A stretch of DNA of 35,150 nucleotides, from IMG/VR virus record IMGVR_UViG_3300018063_000344, positions 1 to 35,150 of that record; one strand, written 5' to 3'. Of this stretch, positions 1 through 28,330 are shown piece after piece (the first letter of the stretch is position 1; every line of letters starts with the position of its first letter). The notes beneath the pieces are model-generated. The model had not been told where the DNA came from. It made no database searches and worked only from the letters and a program-made list of their open reading frames with translations. This stretch comes from a virus. Both the position numbers and the translations under genes were made by a program.

Positions 1-1078
1 ACACCGGCTGAACCGGTGCACCGATCGCCATCTCTGCGGATGGCATCGGCGCGGGCGCTCCGGCCCCGGGTGTGGCGGCGGCGGGATGTGGTTCCGGCGC
101 CGGCGGGAGCGCCCTCGGCTCGATCGCCGTCTGGATGATGCGCGCGCCTGCCGTGGGGTTCCCCGCGCGGGCGGCGATCTCGGCGGCGGCCTGCACGCCC
201 GGCGGCGGCTCGATCTGCGGCGCCACCTCCTCCAGGTAGCCTGCGGGCCGCGGGCCGCGCCGCGGCGTGACATCTCGCGCGAGCGCGGACGGACTCCCAG
301 GCAGCTCCGGGAAGGGCATGAGCTCGCCCTGGACTATGCGGGGGCGCTCGGACGGGACGATGGACGTGTCGAGGCGCCGTGGACGCGGTGGCGGGGCGCC
401 CTCCTCAGCCACGCGCCCTCGCCCACCGGGCACGAGCCCGAACCCCATCGCGGCCATCGCGGCGTCGACGGCGGCGCGGGTCGCGTGCTCCGAGGCGTCT
501 CCGGTCCGGCCTTCGTCAGAGGCGGTCTTGGCCGCGTCGGCCTCCACGATCGCGCCGGCCGCCGCAGGGGCGGCGAACGCGAGCTTGCTGCCGGCGTGAA
601 ACGCCTTGCTCTTCAAGAGCGGCAGAAGCACGCCGGGATCTACGATCCTGCCAGCTATGCGACCCACGCCAAGCGCGGTCCCGGGATCCATGAAGATATT
701 CGTGCCCTCTTCGAGCAACGTGCCTGCGATCCTCCTTGCTCTCGAGTCCTGCGGCCCAGTGGCACCCAATCCTGCCGTGGCCCTGACCATCGAGCCGAGA
801 GTCGCGTCGTCGCCTACCGGCAGGCCTTGGAGGCGGGCCACGCGGCGCGCCAGAGGGTCGCGGATGTAGCGGCTGTAGCCGGTGAACGGGAGGGTCGCGT
901 ACTCGAGGCCGGTGGCCACCCCTTCCCCGACGCGGTCCAGGAAGGTTCCGTCGCTCTGCGGCAACCGCCTCGGCCGCTTGATGATGCGGTCGATCTCGGT
1001 CTCTCCACTCTCGTCGTACGGACCGCCGATGTCGAAAACCCCTCCGGGACCGAACTCGTCGTCGTAGCTACGGGCCAT
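1..1078 (-). CDS. Large probable internal virion/ejection protein, partial (C-terminus beyond left edge)
   Basis: An open frame runs from an ATG at 1078 to the left edge without a stop (359 codons visible). It is absent from simple complete-ORF listings because its end lies outside the window. Codons have strong G/C third positions. The N-terminus carries YDDEFGPGGVFDIGG (residues 5-19) followed by ETEIDRIIKR (26-35), a segment shared with the divergent plus-strand gene. Around residues 160-180 is an Ala-rich hydrophobic stretch (KLAFAAPAAAGAIV), and the visible C-terminal part is rich in Pro, Ala and Arg. It follows a run of Ala/Gln/Pro-rich genes downstream of the tail nozzle gene, where P22-like phages keep ejection proteins, so an ejected virion protein is the best inference. 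No enzymatic domain is recognisable in the visible part. Confidence 0.75.
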   Translation of the reverse strand, partial: MARSYDDEFGPGGVFDIGGPYDESGETEIDRIIKRPRRLPQSDGTFLDRVGEGVATGLEYATLPFTGYSRYIRDPLARRVARLQGLPVGDDATLGSMVRATAGLGATGPQDSRARRIAGTLLEEGTNIFMDPGTALGVGRIAGRIVDPGVLLPLLKSKAFHAGSKLAFAAPAAAGAIVEADAAKTASDEGRTGDASEHATRAAVDAAMAAMGFGLVPGGRGRVAEEGAPPPRPRRLDTSIVPSERPRIVQGELMPFPELPGSPSALARDVTPRRGPRPAGYLEEVAPQIEPPPGVQAAAEIAARAGNPTAGARIIQTAIEPRALPPAPEPHPAAATPGAGAPAPMPSAEMAIGAPVQPV

Positions 1079-1091
1079 GTTCGAACGACCC

Positions 1092-1128
1092 TTGACTGGC
1101 CTCCAAGCCTATGCCTACGCTCGGGGCA
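1092..1128 (+). promoter_or_regulatory. Promoter-like sequence giving a leaderless start for the plus-strand gene
   Basis: TTGACT at 1092-1097 is separated by 18 nt from TACGCT at 1116-1121. The ATG of the following gene begins at 1128, six bases after the -10 hexamer, so a transcript starting at the usual distance would begin at or next to the start codon. No good Shine-Dalgarno sequence precedes this ATG, which fits a leaderless mRNA. Two minus-strand sites in this window have the same layout. Prediction by eye only. Confidence 0.45.
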
Positions 1129-1460
1129 TGAAAGAGAAGCTGATACCGCTGTCCATCCTGGCCATGGCGCTCGCGGTGGTCATTGCCGTTGCTGTCTGGG
1201 GCGTCGTCACCGACCGCGAGGGCCAGCGCAGGGACCAACCCCCCTGGGGCCAAGACCAGCGACGCACGAGCGGGTTCGATACAAGCAACACCGCGACGCC
1301 GACGCCGCGCGACTGCACGAGGCCGAAGAAGGCCTATGACCCCGACTTCGGTCCGGGTGGCGCCTTCGACACCGGCCGCGATCCCAGGATGCCGGTACCG
1401 GAAACCCAGATCGACGCGATCATCTACCGCGGGTGCCCGCCGCCGGATTCGACGCGGTAG
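1128..1460 (+). CDS. Small membrane-anchored protein sharing a motif with the neighbouring virion-type protein
   Basis: A 110-residue protein and the only plus-strand gene I accept. Residues 5-27 form one hydrophobic segment after a short N-terminus (MKEK), so a signal anchor is likely. A polar linker follows. Residues 70-101 contain YDPDFGPGGAFDTG and ETQIDAIIYR, matching residues 5-35 of the divergent minus-strand gene. Two cysteines (63 and 103) bracket this segment and could form a disulfide if it lies in the periplasm. Third codon positions are overwhelmingly G/C, which together with the homology shows it is not a shadow frame. The start at 1128 was preferred to the upstream in-frame ATG at 1077 because the hydrophobic segment then begins at the N-terminus and the promoter-like sequence fits. 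Function unknown; a moron or superinfection-exclusion role is inference. Confidence 0.75.
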   Translation: MKEKLIPLSILAMALAVVIAVAVWGVVTDREGQRRDQPPWGQDQRRTSGFDTSNTATPTPRDCTRPKKAYDPDFGPGGAFDTGRDPRMPVPETQIDAIIYRGCPPPDSTR

Positions 1461-2845: not shown

Positions 2846-3352
2846 TCAGTATCCCTGCCCCCAGTCCTGGCGACTCGACCGCGCGTCTTCCGCCTTCATC
2901 CGGTCGGCTATGGCCTGTAAACGTGGATCCTGTTGCTCCGCCGCCGAATTCGTCGGCAAGTACGCCGCCCGCTGGTACGCGTTCATCGCATTCACGTCCA
3001 TCGTGTAGCCGGGGACGATCCCGGCGCCATGCACCATCCGCATCGGCCCCCCCTCCGCCTGTAACCGAAGGATCTCGGCCCGCATCTGCGCGCTGCGAAG
3101 CTGCCGCGCCATGGGGTCCTCCCGGGGCCTTTCCTGCTGCACCGGCCCGGCGCGCCTGGCCGTTCCCGTGTACTCACCACCACCACCGGACTTGCGCGGC
3201 CTCTCCTGCGCCCGCTTCGCCCGTCGCTCTTGGTAGTCGTCCTTGCGGTCGTACGCCAGGGCCCGGAGGAGTTCGTACCCCTCGCTCGGCGCGGCCGAGA
3301 CGTTCGTCTCGAGCCTGTTCGGACCTTTGTAACCGCTGGTGATCTGCGCCAT
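2846..3352 (-). CDS. Hypothetical helical protein of the ejection-gene cluster, 168 aa
   Basis: ATG at 3352, three bases after the upstream stop. The N-terminal half is charged and Arg/Glu-rich (for example YDRKDDYQERRAKRAQERP). The C-terminal half is helical and Ala/Gln/Met-rich, with MNAYQRAAYLP and an ending near SSRQDWGQGY. No signal, membrane segment or known motif. It is probably a small internal virion or assembly factor by context only. Confidence 0.6.
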   Translation of the reverse strand: MAQITSGYKGPNRLETNVSAAPSEGYELLRALAYDRKDDYQERRAKRAQERPRKSGGGGEYTGTARRAGPVQQERPREDPMARQLRSAQMRAEILRLQAEGGPMRMVHGAGIVPGYTMDVNAMNAYQRAAYLPTNSAAEQQDPRLQAIADRMKAEDARSSRQDWGQGY

Positions 3353-3355
3353 TTA

Positions 3356-4129
3356 CTACCTCCACCCCCTGGGGCCGTGGCTAGAGGCTAGGCCCGTTGC
3401 GGCTCCCCCGGCGGCTCCACCAGCGCCGCTTCCTCCATAGACCGGCGCCGACTCGGGGTCGCTCTCTTCGTAGTACGTCGCCGGCTGCCTCTGCGGGTAC
3501 TGGTTGGAGAGCGCCAGCATCTGCTGGAAGCCCTGTTGCGCCTGCTGGAGCTGCGCGAGGTAGTTGTCGAGCCCCACGCGCTGCTGCGCCTGCATGGAAG
3601 CCGTCGCGCCCAGGGCAAGTTGCCCGGACTGCCCGAGGAGATCGCCGACGTTCTTGTGCTCCCCGAGGGCGATGTCCTCGTTCTGCTGAGCGAGCGCGGC
3701 CGCGAGTCTCTCCCCCGCCCGCCCCTTGATGATGCCCGCCGCGCCGCTCCCCCCGATCCCGCGCCGGGCCGAGTCGGCGTCGAGGGCCTTGTAGACACCC
3801 TCGTAGGCGTCGCGGGTCTTCATCCCGGCGGAGTCCATGGCCCGTTGTCCGAACTCGTCGGAGCCCTCGATGTACTTCTGGATGTTCGCCTGCGACTGAG
3901 CCACGTACGGATCGCGCTCGACGGTGTTCTGGATCGGTGCAACCGGCGAGTTCGCGGTGGGCGTCATGGGCGGCGGCGGAGGCGCCGAGGATGTCGGTGG
4001 GGCCGGCCCTGACGACGGACCGCGGACCGGGCCGATGCGGATGCCGCCTGGAATTGGCGTAGGGGTACCGGTCGAGCCGCCTGTTGCGGCGATCGACATC
4101 GGCAGTTGCTTCGGCCGGCCCTGGATCAC
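3356..4129 (-). CDS. Probable ejection protein, Ala/Gln-rich, 257 aa
   Basis: The frame is open from 4177, but the start was set at the GTG at 4129 because GGAGGAGG lies at ideal spacing in front of it; TTG codons at 4177 and 4165 are alternatives. The first 70 residues are Pro/Gly/Ser-rich. Residues from about 85 onward are helical and rich in Gln and Ala (AALAQQNEDIALGEHKN, LQQAQQGFQQMLALSNQY). A Gly/Ala-rich tail ends the protein. This composition is usual for podovirus internal virion proteins (gp14/gp7-like) that are ejected with the DNA, and the gene follows the nozzle gene. The assignment is by composition and context, not by a motif match. Confidence 0.6.
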   Translation of the reverse strand: MIQGRPKQLPMSIAATGGSTGTPTPIPGGIRIGPVRGPSSGPAPPTSSAPPPPPMTPTANSPVAPIQNTVERDPYVAQSQANIQKYIEGSDEFGQRAMDSAGMKTRDAYEGVYKALDADSARRGIGGSGAAGIIKGRAGERLAAALAQQNEDIALGEHKNVGDLLGQSGQLALGATASMQAQQRVGLDNYLAQLQQAQQGFQQMLALSNQYPQRQPATYYEESDPESAPVYGGSGAGGAAGGAATGLASSHGPRGWR

Positions 4130-4145
4130 AATGGCCTCCTCCGGC

Positions 4146-4190
4146 CCTTCCGGCAGAGTATACAAGGAACCATACAAGAGTTTTCGGGAA
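4146..4190 (-). promoter_or_regulatory. AT-rich gap with a -10-like TATACT, possible weak promoter
   Basis: This short gap between the nozzle gene and the next start is unusually AT-rich. On the minus strand it contains TTGTATGG and then TTGTATACT, whose TATACT is close to a sigma70 -10 element. No acceptable -35 hexamer lies 16-18 nt upstream, so the call is weak. If the TTG starts of the next gene are used, this stretch is partly coding. Confidence 0.2.
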
Positions 4191-6131
4191 TCACACGGGG
4201 CTACTCACTGGGAGCCGTGACCCGATCCCGGGTCGGTACTGTCCGCCGATGCCGCGGAACTTAAACCTGCTGCCCGAGCACGTGAAGCGGAAGGTGAAGC
4301 CACGGCCGCGACAGCGCATCGGACGATCGGGCCACACGGTCTTCGAGGCGTAGAGGGGGTTGGCGCCTCCGAGGATGAGCTGGCCCGCTGGCTTATCCAT
4401 GCCCCACGCGGCCGGTGCCGGAGCGAGCTGAGGGTCGATCGGAACCGCGTACTCGTCTCCCGGGTAGACCTCAACCCGCCAAGCCGAGAACTCCGACTCC
4501 ACATAGCTCCAGATGGCCTGCAGGGTCTTGCCGTCCTCCACCTGACCGCCAGGGTCCGCGAAGAACTGGTGGGCCGTGATGATCTCGCCGGGCTGCGGCG
4601 GGTTGAAAATGTCATTTTCCTCGTAAAGTTTGCCGTCGCACATCCCGTAGATGAGCTTCCCGATGCCGGAGGTGGGGTCCGAGACGTACTCCATCGAGTC
4701 GCACTGCGTGCTCGGGTTTGAATCTATGTTGAGCGGGCTATCGTTGCCCCAGATCGCCTGCCCCATGGAGCCTCCCACCTCCGGCACCACGTTTCCGTAG
4801 GACCCGACCCAAACTTCCGAGGTGTAGTTGTCGTTGTTGATGCCACCTCGACCCTCCGCGAACCGAGGGCAGAACTTGAACTCGTCGTTGCTCTCGTCGT
4901 CCACGGAGAAGCCGCCCTGGAAGGACTCGCGATTCGCCGCGTAGGCCGCCTGCCACTCCGAAAGACGGCTCAGGATCACGTTGTGCCAGGCGCCGTCGAA
5001 GACGTAGACGCCCTTACGGTTCGGGATCCAGCCGCGGCCGTGGATCACCTTACAGGCCGCGTGGTTGAATCCCCCGAGCTGGCCGTCCGAGATGTTCATC
5101 TCGATGTCGTCCTCCGTGTAGCCGGCGATCACGTAGGACGTATTGGGTGTCAGGACGAGCAGGATGTCCCGCAGGGGCACAAGGGCGACGATGGGCTCCC
5201 CGTTCCTGGTCGGAAGGCTGAAGCCCTGCCACCGCTCAGGAAAGAAGAGCATCGAGAAGTAGAGGATGTCCGGGTGCTTTTCGTCCCCCGCCATCACCTG
5301 GCGGTCATGCCACGCTACGTTGATCGTGCAGCGCGGCATCCGCGTGAAATCGTCGAGCGTCATACCGAGAGCGAGCGTCGGAACGCTCTCCGTCGCTGTC
5401 GTGACCCCGAGCTGACGCATTTCAGCCAGCCTGGGCAGGGCCCCGTTCGCCGAGACGAAGAGACCCACGTGCGACGCGCGCGGCTGGATCCGCACATTAA
5501 TCGTCTGGGCGGCGCCGGCGAGCAGCGTCTCCTGCGTGGTTAAGAGATCATCGCTGTCGATATCGGCGATGGTGGCGAACCTGGTAGGGGCTCCCGAAAG
5601 TGCGAGCTTGTCGCCGGGCCGGAGGGCCGAGAACCGCGTGAGCGTCCCTCCGATGCTGGTGGAGGGCGCGGCCAGCGTCACCTTTCCGTCGAAAACAAAG
5701 TCGTCTTCCGGCGTGCGGGCCTGAATCTGGGACCACGATCGGTTAGTGTCGCCCGTCACGCCCGCGCCCGCGGCCGAGAGGGGTCCCCATTCGTCCGTGA
5801 GGACGTCATAGAACGCCAGATACGGAACCTGGAAGGTCGTCCCAGCTCCCACCGAGATCACGGGTGGGTGGCTCGGCTGAACAACCCCCTGCCGGAGGAA
5901 GCGCCGGTGCTCGTCGATAAGCACGTTCTGGTTGTAGCAGCCAACGAGGTAGGGGCGGCTCTTGTAGATCGCTCTCGAGGGCCGCAGCGCAGTCGCGGTC
6001 ACACCGAACGGGGGGAACATCTCTTTCGCTTGAGTAAAGCCGTGTCGAGCGAGATAGGTGCGGCCACGGATCCGCCCAACCCCTCTGTCGGTTCCGCTGC
6101 CCTTGACGTAGTCTTGGACGAGGACGGGCAT
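4191..6131 (-). CDS. Tail nozzle/tail-tube accessory protein (P22 gp10-like), 646 aa
   Basis: ATG at 6131, one base after the upstream stop. The middle of the protein has the pattern of podovirus nozzle or stabilisation proteins: VAWHDRQVMAGDEKHPDILY, then VPLRDILLVLTPNTSYVIAG, then GWIPNRKGVYVFDG, all beta-propeller-type strands and turns. The C-terminus (CRGRGFTFRFTCSGSRFKF followed by a Gly/Arg tail) matches the usual ending of such proteins. In the virion this protein would form the lower tail tube below the head-tail adaptor. Length is within the usual range for the class. It is followed by the presumed ejection proteins and preceded by a second propeller-like protein, an arrangement consistent with a short-tailed phage. 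Confidence 0.75.
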   Translation of the reverse strand: MPVLVQDYVKGSGTDRGVGRIRGRTYLARHGFTQAKEMFPPFGVTATALRPSRAIYKSRPYLVGCYNQNVLIDEHRRFLRQGVVQPSHPPVISVGAGTTFQVPYLAFYDVLTDEWGPLSAAGAGVTGDTNRSWSQIQARTPEDDFVFDGKVTLAAPSTSIGGTLTRFSALRPGDKLALSGAPTRFATIADIDSDDLLTTQETLLAGAAQTINVRIQPRASHVGLFVSANGALPRLAEMRQLGVTTATESVPTLALGMTLDDFTRMPRCTINVAWHDRQVMAGDEKHPDILYFSMLFFPERWQGFSLPTRNGEPIVALVPLRDILLVLTPNTSYVIAGYTEDDIEMNISDGQLGGFNHAACKVIHGRGWIPNRKGVYVFDGAWHNVILSRLSEWQAAYAANRESFQGGFSVDDESNDEFKFCPRFAEGRGGINNDNYTSEVWVGSYGNVVPEVGGSMGQAIWGNDSPLNIDSNPSTQCDSMEYVSDPTSGIGKLIYGMCDGKLYEENDIFNPPQPGEIITAHQFFADPGGQVEDGKTLQAIWSYVESEFSAWRVEVYPGDEYAVPIDPQLAPAPAAWGMDKPAGQLILGGANPLYASKTVWPDRPMRCRGRGFTFRFTCSGSRFKFRGIGGQYRPGIGSRLPVSSPV

Positions 6132-7777: not shown

Positions 7778-8292
7778 TGGGCCATCTCCGCGCGCATGTC
7801 TCGGTAGAGCCGACGCATCACGCTGTTCCAGGGGTCCCACCGCCAATGAATGATGCCGCCGTCGAAGGGCGCGTCGAGGACGCCGACGTGCTCGAGAACG
7901 AAGCTGAGCGACCCGCGCCAGCTCTCAATGCCCAGAAGGTAGTCCAGCGTATCGAGCCCGTGAAGCACTCGGTGCAGGAGCCACGCCTCGAAGGGGTACT
8001 CTTCTGGAACGACAAAGCGGCTCGCGAGCCGGACCTGCCGTTTGTAGTCCTCGCGTCTGATGGCCTCCCAGAGATCGCGCTGGTGTTGCTCGTTTTGCTC
8101 GACGCAGTTCCAGCACTTCATTGGGGCCCAGCCTTCGGAGGCGGCGGGACACAGTGCCGCTCGATCCCCAGGGGATCGAGGGCCGCGAGAGCCTGGGAGC
8201 AGCGTGCGCGCCTGAGCCTCACTGCTGCATAGGTTGCGACGAGATCGAGCGAGGATCAGCAACGCGACAAAGACCACGCGAGCCGGTCTCAC
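7762..8292 (-). CDS. Hypothetical protein with a hydrophobic N-terminus, 176 aa
   Basis: A GTG at 8292 overlaps the upstream stop as GTGA and gives a short hydrophobic N-terminus (VVFVALLILA) followed by a low-complexity stretch. An internal ATG at 8121 would give a 119-residue protein starting MKCWNCVEQNEQHQRDLWEA, whose codon bias is clearly coding, so the N-terminal 57 residues are less certain. The core is Trp-rich and helical (EEYPFEAWLLHRVLHGLDTL, IIHWRWDPWNSVMRRLYRDM). The CWNC pair could bind a metal. No family recognised. It lies between the putative outer-membrane protein and the holin-like gene. Confidence 0.55.
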   Translation of the reverse strand: MRPARVVFVALLILARSRRNLCSSEAQARTLLPGSRGPRSPGDRAALCPAASEGWAPMKCWNCVEQNEQHQRDLWEAIRREDYKRQVRLASRFVVPEEYPFEAWLLHRVLHGLDTLDYLLGIESWRGSLSFVLEHVGVLDAPFDGGIIHWRWDPWNSVMRRLYRDMRAEMAQCSAA

Positions 8293-9029
8293 GGCATGGG
8301 GACGCGGAACATCACGCCCCCCCTCCGCCTACCACCCGCCCCGCTCACCCAGTCGCCCACGAGCGCGAAGCGATGGAACTCCACGCTCCCGGCCAAGATC
8401 GCGCGCACGCCACTGGAGCACGCGCAAGCCGCGTCCGCAGCCCCGTCGCTGCCCGCCATGACGTAGGTCCAGGATCTGCCCCGCCCAAGGCGCAGCCCAC
8501 CCGCGTAGAGCGTCTGGTATCGCCACTCCACGGCGCCCTCGACCGGGACGAGCGCGCCGGCCGAAACCGCAAGGCCCATGTCGAAGCCGGCCACCTTCCG
8601 AGACCACGACAGCGCTCCGTAGGTCTCGATCGTGCGAAGGCTCTTGATGTCCAGGTTCGCGGTGTCGATGGCGCCCAGGCTCGTGAGGTCCATCCGGCCG
8701 CCGAAGCGGATGCCGAGAGGTAGTGGCAGTGCAGCCACGAGCCGGAGCGTCACCAGGTCCTGCCCGCGGTGGAGGGCCCCGCCCTGATCCTGGTCGAGGG
8801 TGAGGAGCGTCCCCAGATACAGGGCCGTCTCTAGCTCAGGCTTTGCGGCGGGGGCGGGGGCCGGCGCGACGTCGGCGGCGACGACGAACGTGGGCAGGCT
8901 CAGGAGCGCGCACAAGATCAGGATGGAGAGGTCCGATACCCTCGTGCCGACGATCGCGGCAGAACTGGCAACAGCACGAAAGGTCCCCACGCCTGTGCCC
9001 GGAACCGCCGACCGTTCGCCGCACGTCAC
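8289..9029 (-). CDS. Exported protein, putative outer-membrane beta-barrel, 246 aa
   Basis: The GTG at 9029 overlaps the lipoprotein stop as GTGA; the open frame extending to 9521 is a shadow of that lipoprotein. A hydrophobic core near residues 35-52 (LSILILCALLSLPTFVVAAD) looks like a Sec signal with an unusually long N-region. The mature part alternates hydrophobic and polar residues in blocks of about ten: LVTLRLVAALPLPLGIRFGG, SLRTIETYGALSWSRKVAG, FDMGLAVSAGALVPV, WTYVMAGSDG and GVMFRVPMP at the end, as in small outer-membrane barrels. It has no terminal Phe, which weakens this. Phage-encoded outer-membrane proteins of the Lom type act in lysogenic conversion or exclusion; a similar role here is inference. 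Confidence 0.55.
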   Translation of the reverse strand: MTCGERSAVPGTGVGTFRAVASSAAIVGTRVSDLSILILCALLSLPTFVVAADVAPAPAPAAKPELETALYLGTLLTLDQDQGGALHRGQDLVTLRLVAALPLPLGIRFGGRMDLTSLGAIDTANLDIKSLRTIETYGALSWSRKVAGFDMGLAVSAGALVPVEGAVEWRYQTLYAGGLRLGRGRSWTYVMAGSDGAADAACACSSGVRAILAGSVEFHRFALVGDWVSGAGGRRRGGVMFRVPMP

Positions 9030-10204
9030 GGGCATGCCTCGGTCAGGCAGCCACCGTCCGGCTTCACCGCACAGGCCGGGCTTCCCGCGATGACCCGGAT
9101 GCATACTTTCGTGCGCGGGTCGGCCGAGCCCTCGAGTTTCAGGAGCCCTGAGCCCTCGGCCACCTTGACCTTCGTTGACGTCCCCGCCCAGGGCGTGACG
9201 ATCCGTACGTCGCCGGCAACGACGCTCCAGGTCGGCGACCCGAAGAGCTTGTCCGCGCACCCCTGATTGCCCTTCTCCTCGGCGAGGAGGCAGCAGCGCG
9301 CGAGCCCATGGGGATGGTCGCAGGGGGGCCGCGGCGGATCTCTGAAGTTGCACGCCTGAGGGGTCGAGTCGATCGTCTGCGTCCCAGTCACCGGGTGGAC
9401 CTGGGTCCGCCACTCCGTCACGTCCGCGAGCGTGAAGGAGCAGCCGCTCTCTCCTTGGCCAGGACTCGGCGGAGTCGCCGGAGGGCTTGCCGGAGGCGGC
9501 GCAGCAGGTGGGATCTTCCATGCGCGCTCGACCTCCTCGATTGATTCCTCATCCGTCGGAGGCGAGCAGCGGCCACGCACCCCGCCCGGGAGCGACCAGC
9601 GGACCTTGCCCGCGGACGAGAGGATCTGGAACCACTCGATCGTTTGGGCGTCACGGCGCACCCCCATTTCCGAGTTCAGGCCGCCCGCGTTCCCGTGGTC
9701 GACGTCGTAGGTCACGCAGAAGCCCTGGGCCTTGAGAAGCCGCATGACCGCGAGCGTGGCCTCTTTCTGGGCCTTCGCCCCGCCGTCTCCCGCCGTGCAG
9801 TCGTCCCCGACCTGGCAGCCCGTCACCTGCGCCAGTGCCGCGTCGACGGCGGCCCCGTAGAGCGTGCTCGTGATGGGCGTGGCCGGCTCGTTGTGGAGGC
9901 CGATGCACTCGCCCGGGCCGGCGATCTTTGCACATGCTCCCGGCGCAGGTGGCTGCGTCGTCGGTGGCGCGTCGCAGGCGGGCGTCAGTTGCCAGTCCTG
10001 ACCAGGGGGTCGGTGCCAGCACCCGCACGCGCGCTGCACGTCGCGCCAGCAGACGGGCGACGGGTCTTTCGTGGGGCCTGGGAGGGTGGTCGTCGGCGGC
10101 GTGCCGGGCACGTCCGGCGGCCCTGGCGGCGGCGGCAGGAGCTTCACGATGCCGGCGCAGGAAGCGGAGCTGACGGCCAAGACGATGATCGCGAGACGCT
10201 TCAT
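9026..10204 (-). CDS. Large Cys-rich lipoprotein of the lysis region, 392 aa
   Basis: ATG at 10204 overlaps the endolysin stop (ATGA). The N-terminus MKRLAIIVLAVSSASC is a lipoprotein signal with a lipobox-type SASC, so Cys16 would be lipidated. A Pro-rich linker follows (LLPPPPGPPDVPGTPPTTT), as in outer-membrane spanins such as Rz1. Unlike Rz1 the protein then continues for some 340 residues with many cysteines (CWRDVQRACGCWHRPPG, GCQVGDDCTAG, CDHPHGLARCCLLAEEKGNQ), suggesting disulfides in the periplasm. A central segment (VTYDVDHGNAGG and EWFQILSSAGKVRWSLPGG) looks like a folded domain. Function unknown; an enlarged o-spanin or a cell-surface conversion protein are both possible. Confidence 0.65.
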   Translation of the reverse strand: MKRLAIIVLAVSSASCAGIVKLLPPPPGPPDVPGTPPTTTLPGPTKDPSPVCWRDVQRACGCWHRPPGQDWQLTPACDAPPTTQPPAPGACAKIAGPGECIGLHNEPATPITSTLYGAAVDAALAQVTGCQVGDDCTAGDGGAKAQKEATLAVMRLLKAQGFCVTYDVDHGNAGGLNSEMGVRRDAQTIEWFQILSSAGKVRWSLPGGVRGRCSPPTDEESIEEVERAWKIPPAAPPPASPPATPPSPGQGESGCSFTLADVTEWRTQVHPVTGTQTIDSTPQACNFRDPPRPPCDHPHGLARCCLLAEEKGNQGCADKLFGSPTWSVVAGDVRIVTPWAGTSTKVKVAEGSGLLKLEGSADPRTKVCIRVIAGSPACAVKPDGGCLTEACP

Positions 10205-10683
10205 CCTTCACCTCGAGTGGCCTGTCGGCACGCGAACCACGTGCCCAACGAGACGCGGTGGAACCACGAATGCCAGGAGCCGGGAGCGCCATTCGCGTAG
10301 GCCTTGCTCCGCACGGCGTTGAAACGGTGGAGGGCCTCCGGCCCCGAGGCTTGAGCTGCGGAGAGCGTTCGCGGGCCTGGAATGCCGTCGACAGGCACGC
10401 GGAGGGCCGTCTGAAGGAAACGGACCCCGGCCGCGGCGCCCTGGTTGAAGGCCGAGTCGAACACCGGGAACTGGAGATGGGCCGGCAGCGCGTCGCAGCG
10501 CGCGACTCTCCAGTAGTCGTTTTCGGCGAGCACCCGCGCCTGCGACTCGATCAGGCCGGCGATGTCGAGCCCCGGGTAGGCCCGTTGGCTGATGCCCCAC
10601 TTCGTGAGGCCACCCGCGTCCGTGACGAGCTTGTCCCCGCCCTCGATTTCCATGAGCAGGTTCCAGGCGTCGTCAGGGATCAT
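10201..10683 (-). CDS. Endolysin, GH108-type N-acetylmuramidase, 160 aa
   Basis: ATG at 10683 overlaps the upstream stop (ATGA). The N-terminal IEGGDKLVTDAGGLTKWGIS followed by QRAYPGLDI is the hallmark of glycoside hydrolase family 108 phage lysozymes; Glu14 of the EGG motif is the expected catalytic acid. The C-terminal region from about residue 95 (VPVDGIPGPRTLSAAQ) resembles the small peptidoglycan-binding domain that follows in this family. Length is normal. It has no signal peptide, so it would need a holin. Two single-TM genes lie directly upstream and a lipoprotein directly downstream, forming a lysis cassette. Confidence 0.9.
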   Translation of the reverse strand: MIPDDAWNLLMEIEGGDKLVTDAGGLTKWGISQRAYPGLDIAGLIESQARVLAENDYWRVARCDALPAHLQFPVFDSAFNQGAAAGVRFLQTALRVPVDGIPGPRTLSAAQASGPEALHRFNAVRSKAYANGAPGSWHSWFHRVSLGTWFACRQATRGEG

Positions 10684-15698: not shown

Positions 15699-16375
15699 GA
15701 ATTGCTCCTCTTTCTCACTTCGACGAACGGCTTCTTCTTGAACTCGGTAGCGAAGCCTGCCTTCGCGTCGACCGATCCGATCTTCCCCGCGAGCTTCTGG
15801 AGGTACGCGTCGTCGTGGCTCCAGCGGTACTCGGTCTCCTTCTGGAGCTTCCCGAGCGCCTCCGACTCGCGCGCGCCCGAGGCCTTGAGAATCTCGTCCA
15901 TCGCGTGGTCGGGATCCGGGTCGTAGGTGTCCTTCATGAACTTCAACTTCCAGTAGACCCACCAGCCGAAGTCGATGTAGTCGCCGGAGAGGTTGCGAGC
16001 GCGCTGATAGGGAGTCGCCTCTTGCTCCAACGAATCCAAGGCGACGTTGGGGCGGCGCCCGGCGTTCACGCCGTACGCCGCGGGGAGGTAGCGGGGCGGC
16101 GCCTTCGGCTCGATCCGGTCACGCTGCTCGACCCAGAGCCAGTGGCGCCCCTCCTTCGTGATCGAGCTGTCGGGGTGCCGGTAGACGGTCCAGCACCACA
16201 TGGGGCAGAACTCGGGGTCGATGTCCCTGCGGATGGCCTCCACGATGGCGACGGGCCACGAGTGCTCGGCCGGGGGGTACGCCTGGAAGAACCGGCCGAG
16301 CACCTTGGCTTCGTCGGGCGGCTTCGGGACGGTCATCTCGAAGCTCGCCGGCAACATCCGCGTGATGACGTTCAA
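15695..16375 (-). CDS. Phage hypothetical protein of the head region, 226 aa
   Basis: The frame starts with TTG at 16375, preceded by AAGGCGG; ATGs at 16357 and 16336 are alternatives. The protein is Trp- and Pro-rich (CPMWCWTVYRHPDSS, IDFGWWVYWKLKFMKDTYDP) with a helical, charged C-terminus (GKIGSVDAKAGFATEFKK). No signal or membrane segment. No family recognised. It ends in an ATGA overlap with the zinc-finger gene, so the two products are probably made together. Confidence 0.6.
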   Translation of the reverse strand: MNVITRMLPASFEMTVPKPPDEAKVLGRFFQAYPPAEHSWPVAIVEAIRRDIDPEFCPMWCWTVYRHPDSSITKEGRHWLWVEQRDRIEPKAPPRYLPAAYGVNAGRRPNVALDSLEQEATPYQRARNLSGDYIDFGWWVYWKLKFMKDTYDPDPDHAMDEILKASGARESEALGKLQKETEYRWSHDDAYLQKLAGKIGSVDAKAGFATEFKKKPFVEVRKRSNS

Positions 16376-16390
16376 CCGCGCCGCCTTCTT

Positions 16391-16885
16391 CTACCGCTCG
16401 AGCGGGAGGCGCGTAGCGAGGATGCGGTAGAAGACCTCGGCCCAGATGTCGCCGGTCCCGGTGATGATCTCACCCGTCAGGATGTGGGCGACGAGCGCCG
16501 CGTTCTCCGTGTAGACGCCGAGGGTACCTGCGACCTCGGGCCGACGCTTCACCACCTTCAGGGCGCCGACGGTCTGGTCGAGCCAGCCAGTGGTCTCCTG
16601 GACCTCGGACGCGGTCTGGCCGGCAGCGTTGGTGTACTTCACCACCAGGTCCTCGCCGGCAGCGATGCCGGCATAGGCCACGGGGGGCGTCGCGGGGCGA
16701 TGCTCCCACAGGACCTCGTCGAGCAGGATGAAGCGACTCACGCCAGGCGCTGGCACGAGCGGGAACGGAGTCGCGAAGAGCGCGAGCACGGACGCCGTAG
16801 GAATGCGGACGAGCTTTCGCTGTGGGATGGCGGCCTGCAAGACGGCTTGCAGGTCTTTACGGGGGATTCCGGCAGCTCCGGCCAT
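16391..16885 (-). CDS. Probable capsid accessory/decoration-type protein, 164 aa
   Basis: ATG at 16885. Directly follows the major capsid gene, separated by a strong hairpin. The core (LVPAPGVSRFILLDEVLWEH, then AGIAAGEDLVVKYTNAAGQ) is a beta-rich segment of a type I associate with small proteins encoded next to phage capsid genes. The C-terminus (GTGDIWAEVFYRILATRLPL) is amphipathic. A head decoration or cement role is inferred from position; the family function is not established to my knowledge. Confidence 0.55.
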   Translation of the reverse strand: MAGAAGIPRKDLQAVLQAAIPQRKLVRIPTASVLALFATPFPLVPAPGVSRFILLDEVLWEHRPATPPVAYAGIAAGEDLVVKYTNAAGQTASEVQETTGWLDQTVGALKVVKRRPEVAGTLGVYTENAALVAHILTGEIITGTGDIWAEVFYRILATRLPLER

Positions 16886-16936
16886 TCTGTTCCTCTCTCT
16901 CCGGTCAGGCGATCATGAGGACCGCCCCTTTGAACG

Positions 16937-16966
16937 GGCCCGGGAGGCTGTTACGCCCCCCGGGCC
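16937..16966 (-). terminator. Strong GC hairpin after the major capsid gene, no U-tract
   Basis: GGCCCGGGAGGC at 16937-16948 pairs with GCCCCCCGGGCC at 16955-16966 with one mismatch and a 6-base loop. No T-run follows on either strand, so this is not a standard intrinsic terminator. It could be a partial terminator, or an mRNA 3'-end stabiliser that raises capsid protein yield relative to the genes behind it. Confidence 0.5.
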
Positions 16967-16978
16967 AGTGGAACGCGG

Positions 16979-18274
16979 TTACTCGGCGGGGTCGCCGCAG
17001 AGCTGCGGATCGAGCAGGTCTCGGATGACGAAGTGCCCGTTCGGCTGGAGGTTCCCGATGTTGGTCACGCTGTAGATCGTGGCCTCTTGGGTGGTCGTCC
17101 GACCGCTGGCGCCGACACCCTGCGCGAGGATCTGGCCCCCGCCGTGGTCGTACCAGTCGAGCTTCTCGACCTCGAAACGTCGGATGAGACTGGTGGTGAT
17201 CCCGAAGATGTTCCTCGGGGAGATGTCCTCCATCCGCTTGATGTGGCAGGTCTTTCCGCCCCACAGGAACTGGAGATCGTCTTCGCGGGCCCCCGTCTGG
17301 TAGGCCGGGACGCCCTTCCCGTTCACGTTGTAGCGACGCTGCGGGATGACGTTCTTCAGGTACTGGCGTATCTGCCCGCTGTTCATCAGCAAGCAGTCGA
17401 TCTCCTGGCCGGAGTTCTGCAGGGTCTGCGACGCGCCGTCGATCAGAAGCTCCTCGGTCTGCGGCCGCAGCACACCCCCGTTGTCGAGGACGGTGGCCTT
17501 GAGGCCGGGGAAGCTCGACCGGCTCTGGTTGTGGATGGTGGTCAGGAAGGTCCCGTCGTCCACCAGCCCCAGCAGTCCGTTGCTGGTGTTGTTGTAGTCG
17601 GGGTAGACGTACACGTGCTCGTTCGCCGAGAGCGTGAGCGCGGTGGCGAGGTTCACGGTACGCGTGGCGGGGACGACGCTGTTCACCTTGATCTGCGTGG
17701 CGGCGCCGGTGCTGGAGATGACTCCGCCCGAGTCGAGGGTGTAGACGTCGAGCAGCATGTTCGGCCGGATGAGGAGGGTCCCCTGCGGCAGCTTCGCGAC
17801 GAAGCTGGCCGTGGCCACGGTGGCGTCTTGCACCTGGCAGAGACGACCGGAGCCGTGGGAACCGGCCATTACCCGGTTCATGTGCTTCGTCACATCGGTG
17901 GTCGATTCCCACATGTGCCGCTGGATCTCGGTCTTGGAGAACGATCCGCGCTTCGTGCCGACCGCGGCCAGGATGAAGCTGATCTGGAAGCTGTTGATGA
18001 ACTGGATGGGGCGGACCCGGGCCTGTACTTCCGTCCGGGACTTGACGGGGGGTAGTGCGCCGCCCTCCGCGGGGGACCCCATGTTCTGCGGGGTCTCGAG
18101 GTAGAACGGCCAGAACGCGCCTTCTCCGTCCGCCTCGTGGTTCTTGCTCTGCTGGATCATCTGGTAGAACGGGGCGCGGTAGTTCTGGTGCAGCTCGAAG
18201 TAGTCGGGGTCGTAAATGCGCTTCAGCGAGTTCTGCAACCCGCCGAGCGTGCTGACCACCGAGGTGAACGCCAT
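16979..18274 (-). CDS. Major capsid protein, 431 aa
   Basis: ATG at 18274, with GGAG at good spacing (TAGGAGATTCCC). The N-terminus (LKRIYDPDYFELHQNYRAPF, YQMIQQSKNHE) and the following EGGALPPVKSR and QFINSFQISFILAAVG are typical of HK97-fold capsid proteins: N-arm, then a beta-rich P-domain. The C-terminal part includes FGITTSLIRRFEVEKLDWYD and a compact beta end. Length is normal for an unprocessed HK97-fold coat protein with a separate scaffold, which is encoded immediately upstream. The highly expressed coat gene is followed by a hairpin and then the accessory protein. No protease domain is visible nearby. Confidence 0.8.
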   Translation of the reverse strand: MAFTSVVSTLGGLQNSLKRIYDPDYFELHQNYRAPFYQMIQQSKNHEADGEGAFWPFYLETPQNMGSPAEGGALPPVKSRTEVQARVRPIQFINSFQISFILAAVGTKRGSFSKTEIQRHMWESTTDVTKHMNRVMAGSHGSGRLCQVQDATVATASFVAKLPQGTLLIRPNMLLDVYTLDSGGVISSTGAATQIKVNSVVPATRTVNLATALTLSANEHVYVYPDYNNTSNGLLGLVDDGTFLTTIHNQSRSSFPGLKATVLDNGGVLRPQTEELLIDGASQTLQNSGQEIDCLLMNSGQIRQYLKNVIPQRRYNVNGKGVPAYQTGAREDDLQFLWGGKTCHIKRMEDISPRNIFGITTSLIRRFEVEKLDWYDHGGGQILAQGVGASGRTTTQEATIYSVTNIGNLQPNGHFVIRDLLDPQLCGDPAE

Positions 18275-18283
18275 GGGAATCTC

Positions 18284-19531
18284 CTATCGACTACGTGCCG
18301 TTGCGAGCTCGTTGTCCCAACGAGCATTCGTTTCGGCCTCGAGATCCTCCAGAGTCGGCAGTCGTGGTCGCGTACCGGGCCGGGATTCACGCCGCGCGGG
18401 AGCTTCGCCGGATGGGACCCCCTCGGAGGCATCCGCGGCCTTGAGCCGCGAGTAGGAGGCGGAGTGGGCTTCGTGCCCGGCTTCGCCGTACCCCATGAAA
18501 TCCTTGGCCGCGTCCAGACAGAAAGCTAGGTAGTCGTCGATCTGGGGGAAGTTTCCAGCTTCGTCCGGTGTGAGGTAGGCCAGCGCGCGCATACGGGCGT
18601 AGCCCTGGCCCTTCTTTTCCTCATCAATGAACTTCTTTAGAAGCGGCTCCGGCATCTTCAGTTGCTTGGCCGCGGCTTTCGCGGCCTCGTAGAAGTTCGT
18701 CCGCATCACGGTACGCTTGCCTACGACTTCCGTTCTCTGGTCTCTCTCCGTTCTCGCTCGTTCACCGACCCGGAGCTTGTGGATTTCCAGGCGATCTCTC
18801 CGACGTTCGGCGTACTCGAGGTAGCGATCGTGCAGGGCTTGGTTGCGGGCGTCGCGGTCCTTGACCTTGGTGCTCAGAGCTCCGGCCTTCTTCTCCAGAT
18901 TCCGAAGCTTCCACTGGAGATCTTCGAGATCTGTCTTCGGGCCGGGGTCGTCGATTTCGCCCTTTACGTCCGCCATCTCCTCGCGTAGCTTCTCGAGGCG
19001 ATCTTCGTCGGCTGCGAGCAGGGTTTCGCTGGCGTTGTACGTCTGCGCCATGCTGTCGATGGTGCTGTTGAGCTGCGCCACGTCGTGCGGGACCTCTTCG
19101 GGTTGGCGCTCGCGCGGTGATACCTCGCGGGGCTCCACCTGCTCGGGACGCTGCTTGCCTCGCAGCTCCTTGAGCTCGCGAGCCATGCTCGCGTTTTGGT
19201 TCCGCATTTGGATGGCGTGTTTCGCGGCCGCCTTACGATCGCCCTTGTAGGCGGTCAGGAACTCGGCTTCGTAGTCGGGTTCCTCGCGGCCGCCAGCCTC
19301 CGCAGCGGGTGATTCCCGTGCTTCCGGCTCGTCCTCTGCTTCGGGGTGATCCCCCTCCGCTTCAGGTCCGTGGCCCTCGCCCTCGGGCTCGTCGCCTTCG
19401 GGCTCGGCTCTGGTGGGCTCGGCGGGTGCTTCTCCGCCTTCGCCCATTCCTCCCGTGATCTCGCGGTCCCATGCGTCTTCCGTCTTCGTCCGCAGGTCGT
19501 CTAGAGCCTGCGGCTCCCTTCCCAGCGCCAT
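18284..19531 (-). CDS. Scaffold-like protein with matching motifs at both ends, 415 aa
   Basis: ATG at 19531, with AAGGA in front. The protein is mostly acidic and helical. Residues 30-80 are an acidic Glu/Pro/Gly-rich region. Residues 85-290 are long charged coiled-coil-type helices (for example EDLQWKLRNLEKKAGALSTK). Residues 300-370 form a compact helical domain (FIDEEKKGQGYARMRALAYL). Acidic, coiled-coil proteins immediately before the coat gene are usually scaffolds; this one lacks an obvious protease motif. Residues 10-25 (LDDLRTKTEDAWDREI) and 394-409 (LEDLEAETNARWDNEL) are near-repeats. It begins downstream of a terminator, so its transcription is probably controlled separately from the portal operon. 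Confidence 0.65.
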   Translation of the reverse strand: MALGREPQALDDLRTKTEDAWDREITGGMGEGGEAPAEPTRAEPEGDEPEGEGHGPEAEGDHPEAEDEPEARESPAAEAGGREEPDYEAEFLTAYKGDRKAAAKHAIQMRNQNASMARELKELRGKQRPEQVEPREVSPRERQPEEVPHDVAQLNSTIDSMAQTYNASETLLAADEDRLEKLREEMADVKGEIDDPGPKTDLEDLQWKLRNLEKKAGALSTKVKDRDARNQALHDRYLEYAERRRDRLEIHKLRVGERARTERDQRTEVVGKRTVMRTNFYEAAKAAAKQLKMPEPLLKKFIDEEKKGQGYARMRALAYLTPDEAGNFPQIDDYLAFCLDAAKDFMGYGEAGHEAHSASYSRLKAADASEGVPSGEAPARRESRPGTRPRLPTLEDLEAETNARWDNELATARSR

Positions 19532-21169: not shown

Positions 21170-21449
21170 CGGATACCTCCACTCCGGGCGAGATCCGCGC
21201 GATGTCGCGCAGGATGAAGAGTCGGTCGCTCTCCGTGGGTGGGGCCTCGAAGTTGACCTTCTTCACCGCCCCGCACTTGCGACAGATGGATAGGGTCTTT
21301 CGGTCGTTCTCGGGAAGGTCGTGGAGTCCGCGGCACTGCCCGGTCAGGAACTCGAACACGTATTGCTGATCGAAGAGGGACGCTCGCGCCAGCCTCTCCA
21401 GTTCGGCCTTCGTGAGCGAGACGGGCCGACCGTTGGTGTCGTGCTTCAT
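21162..21449 (-). CDS. Small zinc-binding-type protein, 95 aa
   Basis: ATG at 21449 overlaps the portal stop by one base (TGATG). An N-terminal helical part (LTKAELERLARASLFDQQYV) contains a single cysteine in GQCRGLHDLP, followed by CRKC near residue 56, so a zinc site formed by these residues and a His is possible. The C-terminus is ESDRLFILRDIARISPGV. Function unknown; tightly coupled to the portal gene. Confidence 0.6.
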   Translation of the reverse strand: MKHDTNGRPVSLTKAELERLARASLFDQQYVFEFLTGQCRGLHDLPENDRKTLSICRKCGAVKKVNFEAPPTESDRLFILRDIARISPGVEVSDA

Positions 21450-24139
21450 CAGGCTACCGTCGGCGCCGGTTCCGTCCCGGCCGGCGTCTGCTCCGCGGCG
21501 GGTGCCGCGACCGCGGGCTGCCCCTGCGTTGCCTGCATCGCGCGAATCGTCGCGTACATGTAGTGCGCCTCCCCCACCGCTTTCATTTTCAACACCGGGA
21601 GCAACTCCGTGGTGGGCGTGACCTGCTTCTCAGCGAGCCTCTGTGTCCAGATTCCCAGGATGTGGAGCTCGATAGCTTGGGGCGGCGGCTGGTAGGCCTC
21701 CCACTCGGACACCGTCGCCTGCGCTTGTGCGTGCGCGGCTTGGGCCTGAGCCGCGGCGGCCTGCTGTGCCTGCTGCGCCTGGCCGGCCAACGCGGGGTCT
21801 GTCAGCCCAGCCGGGGGCGCGGGGACCGGCATCGGACCGCTCTTCGCCAGGGCCTGAGACTGGGCGAACTGCCCAGACAGGACCATCTGCTCGAACTGCT
21901 CTTCCCGCTGCTTCTGCTGACGGAAATCCTTCTCCCATCCGGCGATGATGGGAAGGATGGTCTCCCACTGCGACTCTTCCTTGATCTCGAGCCCCTCCTC
22001 GCTCTTCCACCCGAGCCCGTAGACCTCCCAGTACGTCTTGTGGTCGTCCTCGTTGGGCTCGATCGCGGGCACCGCGCGCGTCTTCGCGAACGCGTGCCAC
22101 TTCCGCTCGGCGTCGTCGAGCTGACGACTTTCCTGGTCCGCGACGTTGTTCTGGACCCCGAGCTCGCGGCGGGCCTCTCGGCGTGCGTACGCGGTGTCGG
22201 TGGGCAGAAGGCGCATGTCGATCGCCTTTACGGTCATCTCGCGGTCGAAGGCCTTCTTGTCGTAGTGCGGCTCCTCGTCGACGAGGACGTCGGTCTGACC
22301 GGCCAGGTCGGCGCCCTTGTACTCCTGCTCCTGCCACGTCTGTCCGATGCCCTTCACCCAATACTTCCGGGGTTCGCGGACGAACTCCTGCTTCAGGCAA
22401 AGGACCGCGGACCACACCTCCTTGCACGCGTCGATGAGCTCGGCGTCCCGCATCTCACCGCGCTCGGAGCTCTTGTCGGCCACGAGCTGGATGGCGGTTC
22501 CGCTCGTGAGACCCTGCGGCGCCTTCCCCAGATCCTGATCGTAAAGCCCGGAGAAGTTCTGCATCCGCTCGATCTGGAACTCGATCTCCTTGTACGCGTT
22601 CCTATCGGCCAGGCGGGACTCGAGGGTGACCGGCTTGTCGTCGGGACGCTCTGTGTCGTGGCTCCAGTAGATCACCCGCCCCGGATACCCCTCGGTGAAG
22701 CCGCGGGACTCCAGCCGGCCGCCCTCGGGCAGGAGGAGTGCGTCGACGCCGTTGCGCTCGCGGATGTCCGTGATCTGGGACCAGCTCATGTTGATGCGCC
22801 GCTGCTGGCTCCACATCCCGGTCTGGACGCCCTGACCGAAGTATTCGTCCTTCTTCGGGAAGAACCGTGAGGCCGCGTAGGTCACGCGCGGCACGTATTG
22901 CCCGCGCTCCTCTTTCCTCTCGACGAGGAGATCGCCGTTAATGAGCACGACCTTGTTCGAGAAGACGACGAAGCGGCCGCGAGGGTTGTCGCGCGTCGGC
23001 CCCTGGGCAAAGCGGAAGAGTCGGGAGTGGTTGGCCCAGAGGTTCCGGTTTCCGACGTCACGCCAGCCGCGGCTACGGGAGCCGTGCTCCCCCATCACGA
23101 ACCGCTGCCGGGCGATCTCCTCGGGGCTCTCTGGCTGCACCTTATCGCCAAGGTCGTGCCAGCAGGCAATGTTGTCGACGCTCTCGGGGCTGTCCTCCGC
23201 GTACCAGTTCGGGCAGCCGGGGCGCCCCATTGGGCCCGGGCGGAGGTTGATCCCGTCGTTCTCGACGAAGAAGTCGAAGAGCGAGGGCGCCTTGACGTGG
23301 GTGTCCCCGAGGGGTACGTCTTTCCCCATTGAGCGACCGAACAGGTCGTCCGCGTCCGTCGCCGGCCCGATCGGGGGCGCGTACGGCATCATCGGGGCGC
23401 CGCACTTCAGGCAGTGGTCGACGGAGAAGCTCTCCCACAGCCCGCCCTTGTCCATGTTGAACTCGCTCGTGCGGGTCACGTTCGCCCGCATCGAGTCGGG
23501 GAGCTTCATGAACATCTCGGGCTTGATGGCGTTGGCGGCCACGACGAAGCCGGGGACCTCCCCGGAGCCAGGGCAGGTCGGGCACTTCGCCCCCGTGAGC
23601 ACCCCGATCCGGGTCGTCTTTCGGAAGTCGGTCAGCCACTCCGCGCAGAAGATCCCGGTGCCGTAGAGCACGTTGCTGAAGACGTGGTCGCGGTAAGTGG
23701 CGTCCCAACGATCCTCGTCGCACGTGGCGTCGAGGACGTCGTCGCCCTTCGTCGAGGCGGCCTTCGCGTTCGCGTCGTCGCCGCGGCGTGCCCGGACGTA
23801 CCCGCGTGAGCGGCGCTTGCCCAGGCGCGAGCGGTGGGTGTCGGTGATCGGCAGGAGCTCGTTGTTGATCGTCTGCGGAACGTCTTCCTCGTCCTCTTCC
23901 TGCTCGACGATCCGCACCGAGCGCGCCGAGTCTGAGCCGACGAAGTCGAGCCACTGGATGCTCTCGTACATGAGCTTGTTGATGTACCACTCGATCTCGA
24001 GCTCGCGGCGGGCCTGCGTCTGGTGGTTGCAGACGCGCTTGAAGAACGCATCCCAGACGCCGGCGCTCTTCTCTTTCTTGTCCGGGACCTTGAAGGGCCC
24101 GAGGGAGCGCTGCGAGATCGCCGGGTACGCGGTGGACAT
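21449..24139 (-). CDS. Portal protein (podovirus type) with internal CxxC pairs, 896 aa
   Basis: ATG at 24139, three bases after the upstream stop. The N-terminus (residues 30-110) shows helices and the QTINNELLPITDTHRSRLGK segment seen in P22/T7-class portals, and the central part includes MQNFSGLYDQDLGKAPQGLT and SGTAIQLVADKSSERGEM. The C-terminal 150 residues are a long Gln/Ala-rich helical region, as in portals with an extended barrel. At 896 residues it is at the long end for this class. Residues 186-189 (CPTC) and 243-246 (CLKC) form two CxxC pairs, an unusual zinc-binding-type feature. The portal forms the dodecameric DNA gate at the capsid vertex and docks terminase. Confidence 0.85.
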   Translation of the reverse strand: MSTAYPAISQRSLGPFKVPDKKEKSAGVWDAFFKRVCNHQTQARRELEIEWYINKLMYESIQWLDFVGSDSARSVRIVEQEEDEEDVPQTINNELLPITDTHRSRLGKRRSRGYVRARRGDDANAKAASTKGDDVLDATCDEDRWDATYRDHVFSNVLYGTGIFCAEWLTDFRKTTRIGVLTGAKCPTCPGSGEVPGFVVAANAIKPEMFMKLPDSMRANVTRTSEFNMDKGGLWESFSVDHCLKCGAPMMPYAPPIGPATDADDLFGRSMGKDVPLGDTHVKAPSLFDFFVENDGINLRPGPMGRPGCPNWYAEDSPESVDNIACWHDLGDKVQPESPEEIARQRFVMGEHGSRSRGWRDVGNRNLWANHSRLFRFAQGPTRDNPRGRFVVFSNKVVLINGDLLVERKEERGQYVPRVTYAASRFFPKKDEYFGQGVQTGMWSQQRRINMSWSQITDIRERNGVDALLLPEGGRLESRGFTEGYPGRVIYWSHDTERPDDKPVTLESRLADRNAYKEIEFQIERMQNFSGLYDQDLGKAPQGLTSGTAIQLVADKSSERGEMRDAELIDACKEVWSAVLCLKQEFVREPRKYWVKGIGQTWQEQEYKGADLAGQTDVLVDEEPHYDKKAFDREMTVKAIDMRLLPTDTAYARREARRELGVQNNVADQESRQLDDAERKWHAFAKTRAVPAIEPNEDDHKTYWEVYGLGWKSEEGLEIKEESQWETILPIIAGWEKDFRQQKQREEQFEQMVLSGQFAQSQALAKSGPMPVPAPPAGLTDPALAGQAQQAQQAAAAQAQAAHAQAQATVSEWEAYQPPPQAIELHILGIWTQRLAEKQVTPTTELLPVLKMKAVGEAHYMYATIRAMQATQGQPAVAAPAAEQTPAGTEPAPTVA

Positions 24140-27633: not shown

Positions 27634-27835
27634 CCGCCACCTCCCCGCCGGGGACGATGATGTCCCAGGCCCCTGAAATCCGAGCCGCGACGACGCGGCC
27701 CGGGACGACCCTCACCACGATGTGGATGTCGCCCGTCTTGCCGCGCTCGAAGGCGTCGAACACCTCGCCCTCGAGCGCGGCCATGATGGCGTCGCGCCAG
27801 TCCTCGGGAGACGACCGGCGGCGGACGGGTCTCAC
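27257..27835 (-). CDS. Small protein overlapping the nested TM gene, up to 192 aa
   Basis: GTG at 27835 overlaps the GroES-like stop (TAGTG). The first 65 residues look like a real protein (SSPEDWRDAIMAALEGEVFD, then GDIHIVVRVVPGRVVAARIS). From about residue 68 on, the sequence is out of phase with the nested gene and has the Arg/Pro/Gly look of a shadow. Yet the only in-frame stop is at 27257, where it makes an ATGA overlap with the next start. Either the C-terminal 125 residues are a tolerated overprinted tail, or a frameshift joins the two frames. Confidence 0.5.
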   Translation of the reverse strand: MRPVRRRSSPEDWRDAIMAALEGEVFDAFERGKTGDIHIVVRVVPGRVVAARISGAWDIIVPGGEVAGEDPGAGTATPANDSRRDERPADAAGDQSSAPPAPHGQAQRGVPVAEQGGALSQLPGGGVVGALVVALPGPDLAHGAPDPEELPGAPRLRQQGRGGASLRRTAAGGRPLADGWRRWGGIREGGRR

Positions 27836-28188
27836 TACCCAGTCCGCCGGGCCCTCGGCGCTTTCTCGTCCAAGACGACGACGCCCATGACCTCGTCGAC
27901 GCGCAGGATCTTCAACTCCAGAACCTCCTGGGTCTCGTCCTTACCGGGATTGCCCACGAGCTTCAGATCCGAACCCGACAACTTCGCGAAGGCGACCATG
28001 TCGCCCTCCTTCAGCCCTGACGGTTTCCACGAGCCGTCTTGCAGCAGGAATCCCTGACCGACAGCGACGACCTCGCCTCGGAGGGCGTCGAGCCGGCCCT
28101 CAAGGAGCACGACTCCGCCGCGACCTTTGACCTCCGCAGCGGCGATCACGCGAACGGCGATGCGGTCTCCGAACGGAAGGAATTTCAT
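27835..28188 (-). CDS. GroES-like co-chaperonin, 117 aa
   Basis: ATG at 28188 with TGGAGG in front. The sequence follows the GroES pattern: start MKFLPFGDRIAVRVI, then a GGVVL element like the end of the GroES mobile loop (residues 24-28), GEVVAVGQGFLLQDGSWKPS (39-58), KEGDMVAFAKLSGSDLKL (60-77) and EVLELKILRVDEVMGVV near the end. Length is close to that of cellular GroES (about 95) plus a short tail. Phage co-chaperonins such as T4 gp31 replace host GroES to fold the capsid protein. Here the gene follows the large terminase rather than the capsid gene. Confidence 0.8.
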   Translation of the reverse strand: MKFLPFGDRIAVRVIAAAEVKGRGGVVLLEGRLDALRGEVVAVGQGFLLQDGSWKPSGLKEGDMVAFAKLSGSDLKLVGNPGKDETQEVLELKILRVDEVMGVVVLDEKAPRARRTG

Positions 28189-28330
28189 CAGTTGCCTCCA
28201 TTAGCCGGAGAGATCCTTCGGCCACGCGGTCCCACGCCCTCTTCAGACTCTCCACGGCGGACGGTTTCCACGACCCGTCTTGTAGCACGAAGCCCTGGCC
28301 GACCTTGAACCTCATGCTCATAGCTTTCAC
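28100..28330 (-). CDS. Small gene carrying a duplicated GroES segment, 76 aa
   Basis: GTG at 28330 overlaps the terminase stop (GTGA). Residues 10-24 (VGQGFVLQDGSWKPS) copy residues 43-57 of the GroES-like protein encoded next to it with one difference, and the DNA is about 88 percent identical over that stretch (28259-28303 against 28018-28062). The following SAVESLKRAWDRVAEGSLRL looks like a helix. The last 30 residues overlap the GroES gene out of phase and look like shadow sequence. It is either a small functional protein or the remnant of a GroES duplication. Confidence 0.45.
   Translation of the reverse strand: MKAMSMRFKVGQGFVLQDGSWKPSAVESLKRAWDRVAEGSLRLMEATDEIPSVRRPHRRSRDRRCGGQRSRRSRAP

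Follow-up and report, generated by a model that had tools for sequence, protein, structure and literature searches.

In phage P22, the inner-membrane protein SieA blocks injection of P22 DNA, and mutations that escape this block map to the ejection proteins gp16 and gp20 (PMC10883804). A second case is the virion protein pIII of endogenous filamentous phages: produced by the host, it saturates TolA and prevents superinfection (PMC7070036). Repeat domains of Ltp, a lipoprotein of TP-J34, reportedly interact with the tape measure protein (PMC3952083). Here, we analyze a phage locus in which a small predicted membrane protein and its divergently encoded, probably ejected neighbor share a short segment, and we consider whether the first could act as a membrane-tethered decoy of the second.

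A P22-like genome and its late operon

The stretch of DNA that we analyzed (the window) is the whole of a virus record, 35,150 bases with 66.8% G+C. Judged by its genes, it comes from an unclassified short-tailed phage and is a P22-like podovirus, as it encodes both a P22-type portal and a related capsid protein. The landmarks are as follows.

10201-10683: GH108 lysozyme
16979-18274: capsid protein (phrog_14242, E 2.7e-17)
21449-24139: P22-type portal (PF16510, above its cut-off)
27835-28188, minus strand: GroES-like co-chaperonin (NCBIfam, E 4.8e-13)
28327-29955: large terminase
33583-35148, minus strand: HerA-like ATPase whose ORF continues past the right end (it weakly matches "anti-phage-associated HerA" models)

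The capsid protein is 23-27% identical to those of three GenBank phages and has distant matches in ctLwi270 and Casserole. Relatives of the terminase in IMG/VR are just 26-32% identical, and no close relative of the genome was present in the collections searched. Searches of the record for tRNAs and Rfam families came back empty, and the proteins scanned included neither an integrase nor anything else suggestive of lysogeny. Downstream of the lysozyme gene, two long minus-strand ORFs overlap in different frames (9026-10204 and 8289-9521), either of which may be the gene; the former has a lipoprotein-like start (SASCAG). The genome also contains a 44-nt direct repeat (28019-28062 and 28260-28303, 89% identical), through which 18 residues encoded by the GroES-like gene recur upstream on the same strand.

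Nearly all ORFs with coding-like codon usage lie on the minus strand. At the left end of the record, they are arranged around a single gene on the plus strand.

2-1078, minus strand: the left gene, which the record end truncates (359 aa or longer), with coding-like codon usage
1128-1460, plus strand: lone plus-strand gene, 110 aa, recognized by codon usage, with one predicted membrane helix
1486-2541, minus strand: late-operon protein of about 340-351 aa, convergent with the plus-strand gene and without a family
2502-2843 and 2846-3352, minus strand: two small late-operon proteins, 113 and 168 aa
3356-4177, minus strand: late-operon protein of 273 aa that serves as the synteny anchor (similar to UOF78532 and to Casserole gp25, z about 5 each)
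4191-6131, minus strand: 646-aa protein, probably a structural part of the virion (phrog_511, "internal virion protein", matched weakly at E 0.0011)

This order parallels that of two distant relatives. In podovirus ctLwi270, two small proteins and then the 1416-aa giant UOF78512 come after UOF78532, and in Arthrobacter phage Casserole, gp25 is followed by gp26 and then by the 1803-aa gp27. In the window, the 273-aa protein, whose match to UOF78532 is weak by tblastn (E 0.012), is followed by further proteins and then by the left gene at the giant's position. The 646-aa protein and the ctLwi270 stabilization protein match the same part of phrog_511, both weakly, and the former also matches two Paenibacillus phages, marginally and over part of its length (E 1e-3). 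The two small proteins of the window end alike (..SMWRGY and ..DWGQGY), which is perhaps a C-terminal motif.

The left gene lies in the late operon beside virion genes. Because this place matches that of the giants in two distant relatives, its product is probably a large internal or ejection protein, an assignment made by operon position only; for the "virion-type" label given to it in a preliminary description of this DNA, the support is likewise synteny. The protein is helical and rich in Pro and Ala, and it contains no cysteine in 359 residues. Profile searches returned no family match, its direct similarity to the 1416-aa and 1803-aa giants was inside the shuffle range, and, compared as a truncated fragment, it had no sequence match among known ejection proteins. 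Its predicted structure was poor (mean pLDDT 43) and was left out of the fold search. The frames would allow the left gene to continue, on a circular molecule, into the ORF at the right end, but we rejected this because that ORF encodes the HerA-like ATPase.

The lone plus-strand gene encodes a predicted membrane protein

The gene at 1128-1460 is the only clearly plausible plus-strand coding gene in 35 kb. Its codon log-odds (0.31) and GC3 (0.85) are phage-like and its other frames score negative or low, while the remaining plus-strand ORFs either have low codon scores or overlap stronger minus-strand genes. An antisense ORF at 1068-1601 was rejected as a true gene for its negative codon score. 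Starting instead at ATG 1077 would add 17 residues (127 aa). No promoter was found for the gene.

The protein consists of an N-terminal membrane helix, a disordered linker rich in R, P and Q, Cys63, the segment described below, Cys103 and a short tail. Its hydropathy (KD19) reaches a maximum of 2.84, and AlphaFold2 places a helix at residues ~8-34, with pLDDT of about 92 for residues 11-20. The remainder, which holds the segment, is mostly below 60 and disordered. The protein is predicted to be anchored by one N-terminal membrane helix, with a cleavable signal peptide as a possible alternative; a lipobox is absent. Residues 63 and 103 are its only cysteines and lie on either side of the segment. 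We infer that the C-terminal tail would be outside the inner membrane and that C63 and C103 could form a disulfide. The protein matched no entry in Pfam, PHROGs, NCBIfam or PADLOC at E 0.1, and by sequence in these collections it does not fall into a SieA-like family.

The membrane protein and the left protein share a segment

Residues 67-101 of the plus-strand protein (counted from ATG 1128) align with residues 2-35 of the left protein at 51% identity with one single-residue gap. Overall, the common segment is 34-35 residues long and 51-53% identical, and ETxIDxIIxR is in register across it.

1329-1430, plus strand: segment copy in the membrane protein, KAYDPDFGPGGAFDTGRDPRMPVPETQIDAIIYR
974-1072, minus strand: segment copy in the left protein, residues 3-35, RSYDDEFGPGGVFDIGGPYDESGETEIDRIIKR

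The local BLOSUM62 alignment scores 83, whereas 2000 shuffles averaged 36 and never exceeded 67. A phmmer search of the record's six frames finds the second copy with E 2.5e-6, and tblastn of the record against itself recovers the segment with E 1.8e-5. Among the 34 proposed window proteins, this is the sole clearly significant pair in blastp (E 1.5e-5 to 4e-5). The coding DNA is also similar and forms two pairs of inverted arms.

1025-1067 and 1334-1376: inverted arms, 43 nt, 77% identical
975-1003 and 1401-1429: inverted arms, 29 nt, 76% identical

Because the DNA match is weak by itself (blastn E 0.086), the evidence for the shared segment is at the protein level. We rejected an assembly or amplification artefact, as ~23% of bases differ between the arms, preferentially at third positions. 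The preliminary description had reported a shared segment with one short gap, roughly half identity and similar DNA, in a membrane protein with one transmembrane segment and two flanking cysteines, and our analysis bears out this account.

Neither protein, nor the whole segment, had a relative in IMG/VR, GTDB genomes, INPHARED, PLSDB or the PDB. IMG/VR was queried with both proteins, the 646-aa protein, the portal, the segment alignment and DNA patterns; GTDB with the segment and the capsid protein; and INPHARED and PLSDB by tblastn. The full segment was absent from GenBank phages and, in scans that begin with short exact peptide patterns and that very diverged relatives would therefore escape, from IMG/VR and from 84,980 bacterial and archaeal genomes.

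Possible functions of the second copy

Our leading reading, at a probability of roughly 0.3, is that the plus-strand protein is a membrane-tethered decoy of the terminus of the phage's own ejection protein. The gene would be a moron-like accessory gene, set on the opposite strand within a P22-like late operon, whose copy of the segment arose by a short inverted duplication. Its small product would be exported and anchored to the inner membrane through a single N-terminal helix, and a flexible periplasmic tail would present the copy of the N-terminal segment of the neighboring large, probably ejected, protein. A C63-C103 disulfide might close the segment into a loop. The tethered segment could then occupy a periplasmic or inner-membrane site, or a companion ejection protein, needed by the N-terminus of the incoming large protein, and conduit assembly by a superinfecting sibling phage would thereby be blocked. 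In this scheme we infer the topology of the membrane protein, its disulfide, the docking role of the segment, that the left protein is ejected, and exclusion itself. That a dedicated tethered mimic of the docking segment, made by inverted duplication, excludes siblings by competing for the ejection protein's partner, a form of self-mimicry, is possible but unlikely.

We favor the decoy because the segment match is far beyond chance and the plus-strand gene is coding and clearly plausible as no other ORF on its strand is. A confidently modeled helix followed by a disordered tail would be expected of a tethered linear motif, cysteines flank the segment in a protein whose counterpart has none, and the left gene occupies the giant-protein position of the late operon. 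The decoy reading is weakened by the restriction of the plus-strand protein and the segment pair to a single genome among the collections searched, by the absence of a detectable promoter and, among the proteins scanned, of signs of lysogeny, by the 44-nt direct repeat as a further short duplication in this genome, and by the placement of the left protein in the virion through synteny only.

About as likely as the decoy, and thus well short of probable, is that the segment is a passenger: a short inverted copy of the 5' end of the left gene that came to lie near the 3' end of a gene for a small membrane protein and serves no purpose linked to the left protein. The 44-nt direct repeat indicates that short copies arise in this genome without special function, and partial gene copies also occur in the comparison phage MW202458. 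There, a helicase gene and two adjacent small ORFs (16333-18924) share C-terminal parts, one pair being 68% identical over 71 aa. Across the 24 best-aligned codons of the two segment copies, differences number 4, 4 and 10 at positions 1, 2 and 3 (dN 0.20, dS 0.82), and 17 of the 24 core residues are identical. In simulations, drift of both copies was disfavored (P ~0.02), but drift of the plus-strand copy alone, with the left gene constrained, was compatible with the 17 identical residues (P ~0.29). The substitutions are therefore no proof of selection on the plus-strand copy, and to this extent they weaken the decoy reading. Drift is harder to reconcile with a reading frame that is uninterrupted across the copy and keeps typical codon usage, and with best-conserved residues that form two motif-like blocks around an unconserved middle.

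There is a somewhat smaller chance that the segment is a recruitment tag through which both proteins bind one shared phage partner (the portal, the internal core or another ejection protein) and that the plus-strand product is a minor virion or assembly component and not an exclusion factor. Docking motifs often sit at the extreme N-terminus, as the segment does in the left protein, and the plus-strand gene is inside the late cluster. Additionally, the small proteins beside the giant in ctLwi270 share ~45 residues (29827-30526, 42% identity, E 6.5e-4); this fits a docking tag equally well and counts against the decoy. However, the plus-strand gene is on the opposite strand, hence off the late transcript, and an export or membrane helix would be unusual in a capsid-core protein unless that protein is ejected. 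The preliminary description had suggested either a decoy or a recruitment tag, an interpretation that our results partly support and that, in both forms, goes beyond what the sequence itself records.

Convergence, in which FGPGGxFD is a widely used turn motif and the remaining match is luck, appears improbable. FGPGGxFD alone does recur in 39 viral stretches (some of them the same protein repeated), in unrelated proteins that include helicase-like and tail-like ones. The objection raised beforehand, that the segment might be a low-complexity or ubiquitous motif, therefore applies to this half-motif only, since the searches located no further example of the full segment with ETxIDxII. Chance would also have to account for 34-35 matched residues with the second motif in register, for a within-record E value of 2.5e-6 and for DNA that is 77% alike over 43 nt.

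Finally, although the arms are inverted, in frame and flank both start regions, an invertible switch in which recombination between them swaps 5' ends and gives the large protein a membrane anchor is very improbable, as active invertible arms keep near-identity, these are just 77% alike, and no invertase was seen among the window proteins scanned.

Comparison with known systems

If the decoy reading is true, phages can make superinfection excluders simply by joining a membrane anchor to a copied docking segment from a protein that they eject, and the shared segment would point directly to where a podovirus ejection protein makes contact, a little-characterized site. The giants UOF78512 and Casserole gp27 resemble the left gene in operon position, each following a protein like that at 3356-4177, but they have no significant match to the left protein and lack the segment. 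Ltp and HK97 gp15 are small membrane-bound phage proteins, as is predicted for the plus-strand protein, and their targets are the tape measure protein or the entry of DNA. In contrast to the arrangement here, the Ltp repeat domains reportedly interact with the tape measure protein and do not copy it; moreover, the plus-strand protein has no lipobox, and the hosts differ.

SieA is another parallel, being a phage-encoded inner-membrane protein of a P22-like phage, and the proposed target of the plus-strand protein is likewise the ejection-protein conduit. The plus-strand protein differs in being a 110-aa protein with a single predicted helix and no family match, for which exclusion is a proposal. 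To our knowledge, no sequence similarity between SieA and the ejection proteins that it blocks has been described. With pIII, the proposed decoy shares its logic: the binding part of a virion protein, displayed by the host, saturates an entry partner. There, the virion protein itself acts, whereas the plus-strand protein would carry a borrowed 34-residue piece. These two precedents add to the case for the decoy, since a tethered copy of the N-terminus of an ejection protein would unite the principles of both. We regard the locus as a modest but real oddity of a single genome and a possible variant of a known exclusion logic.
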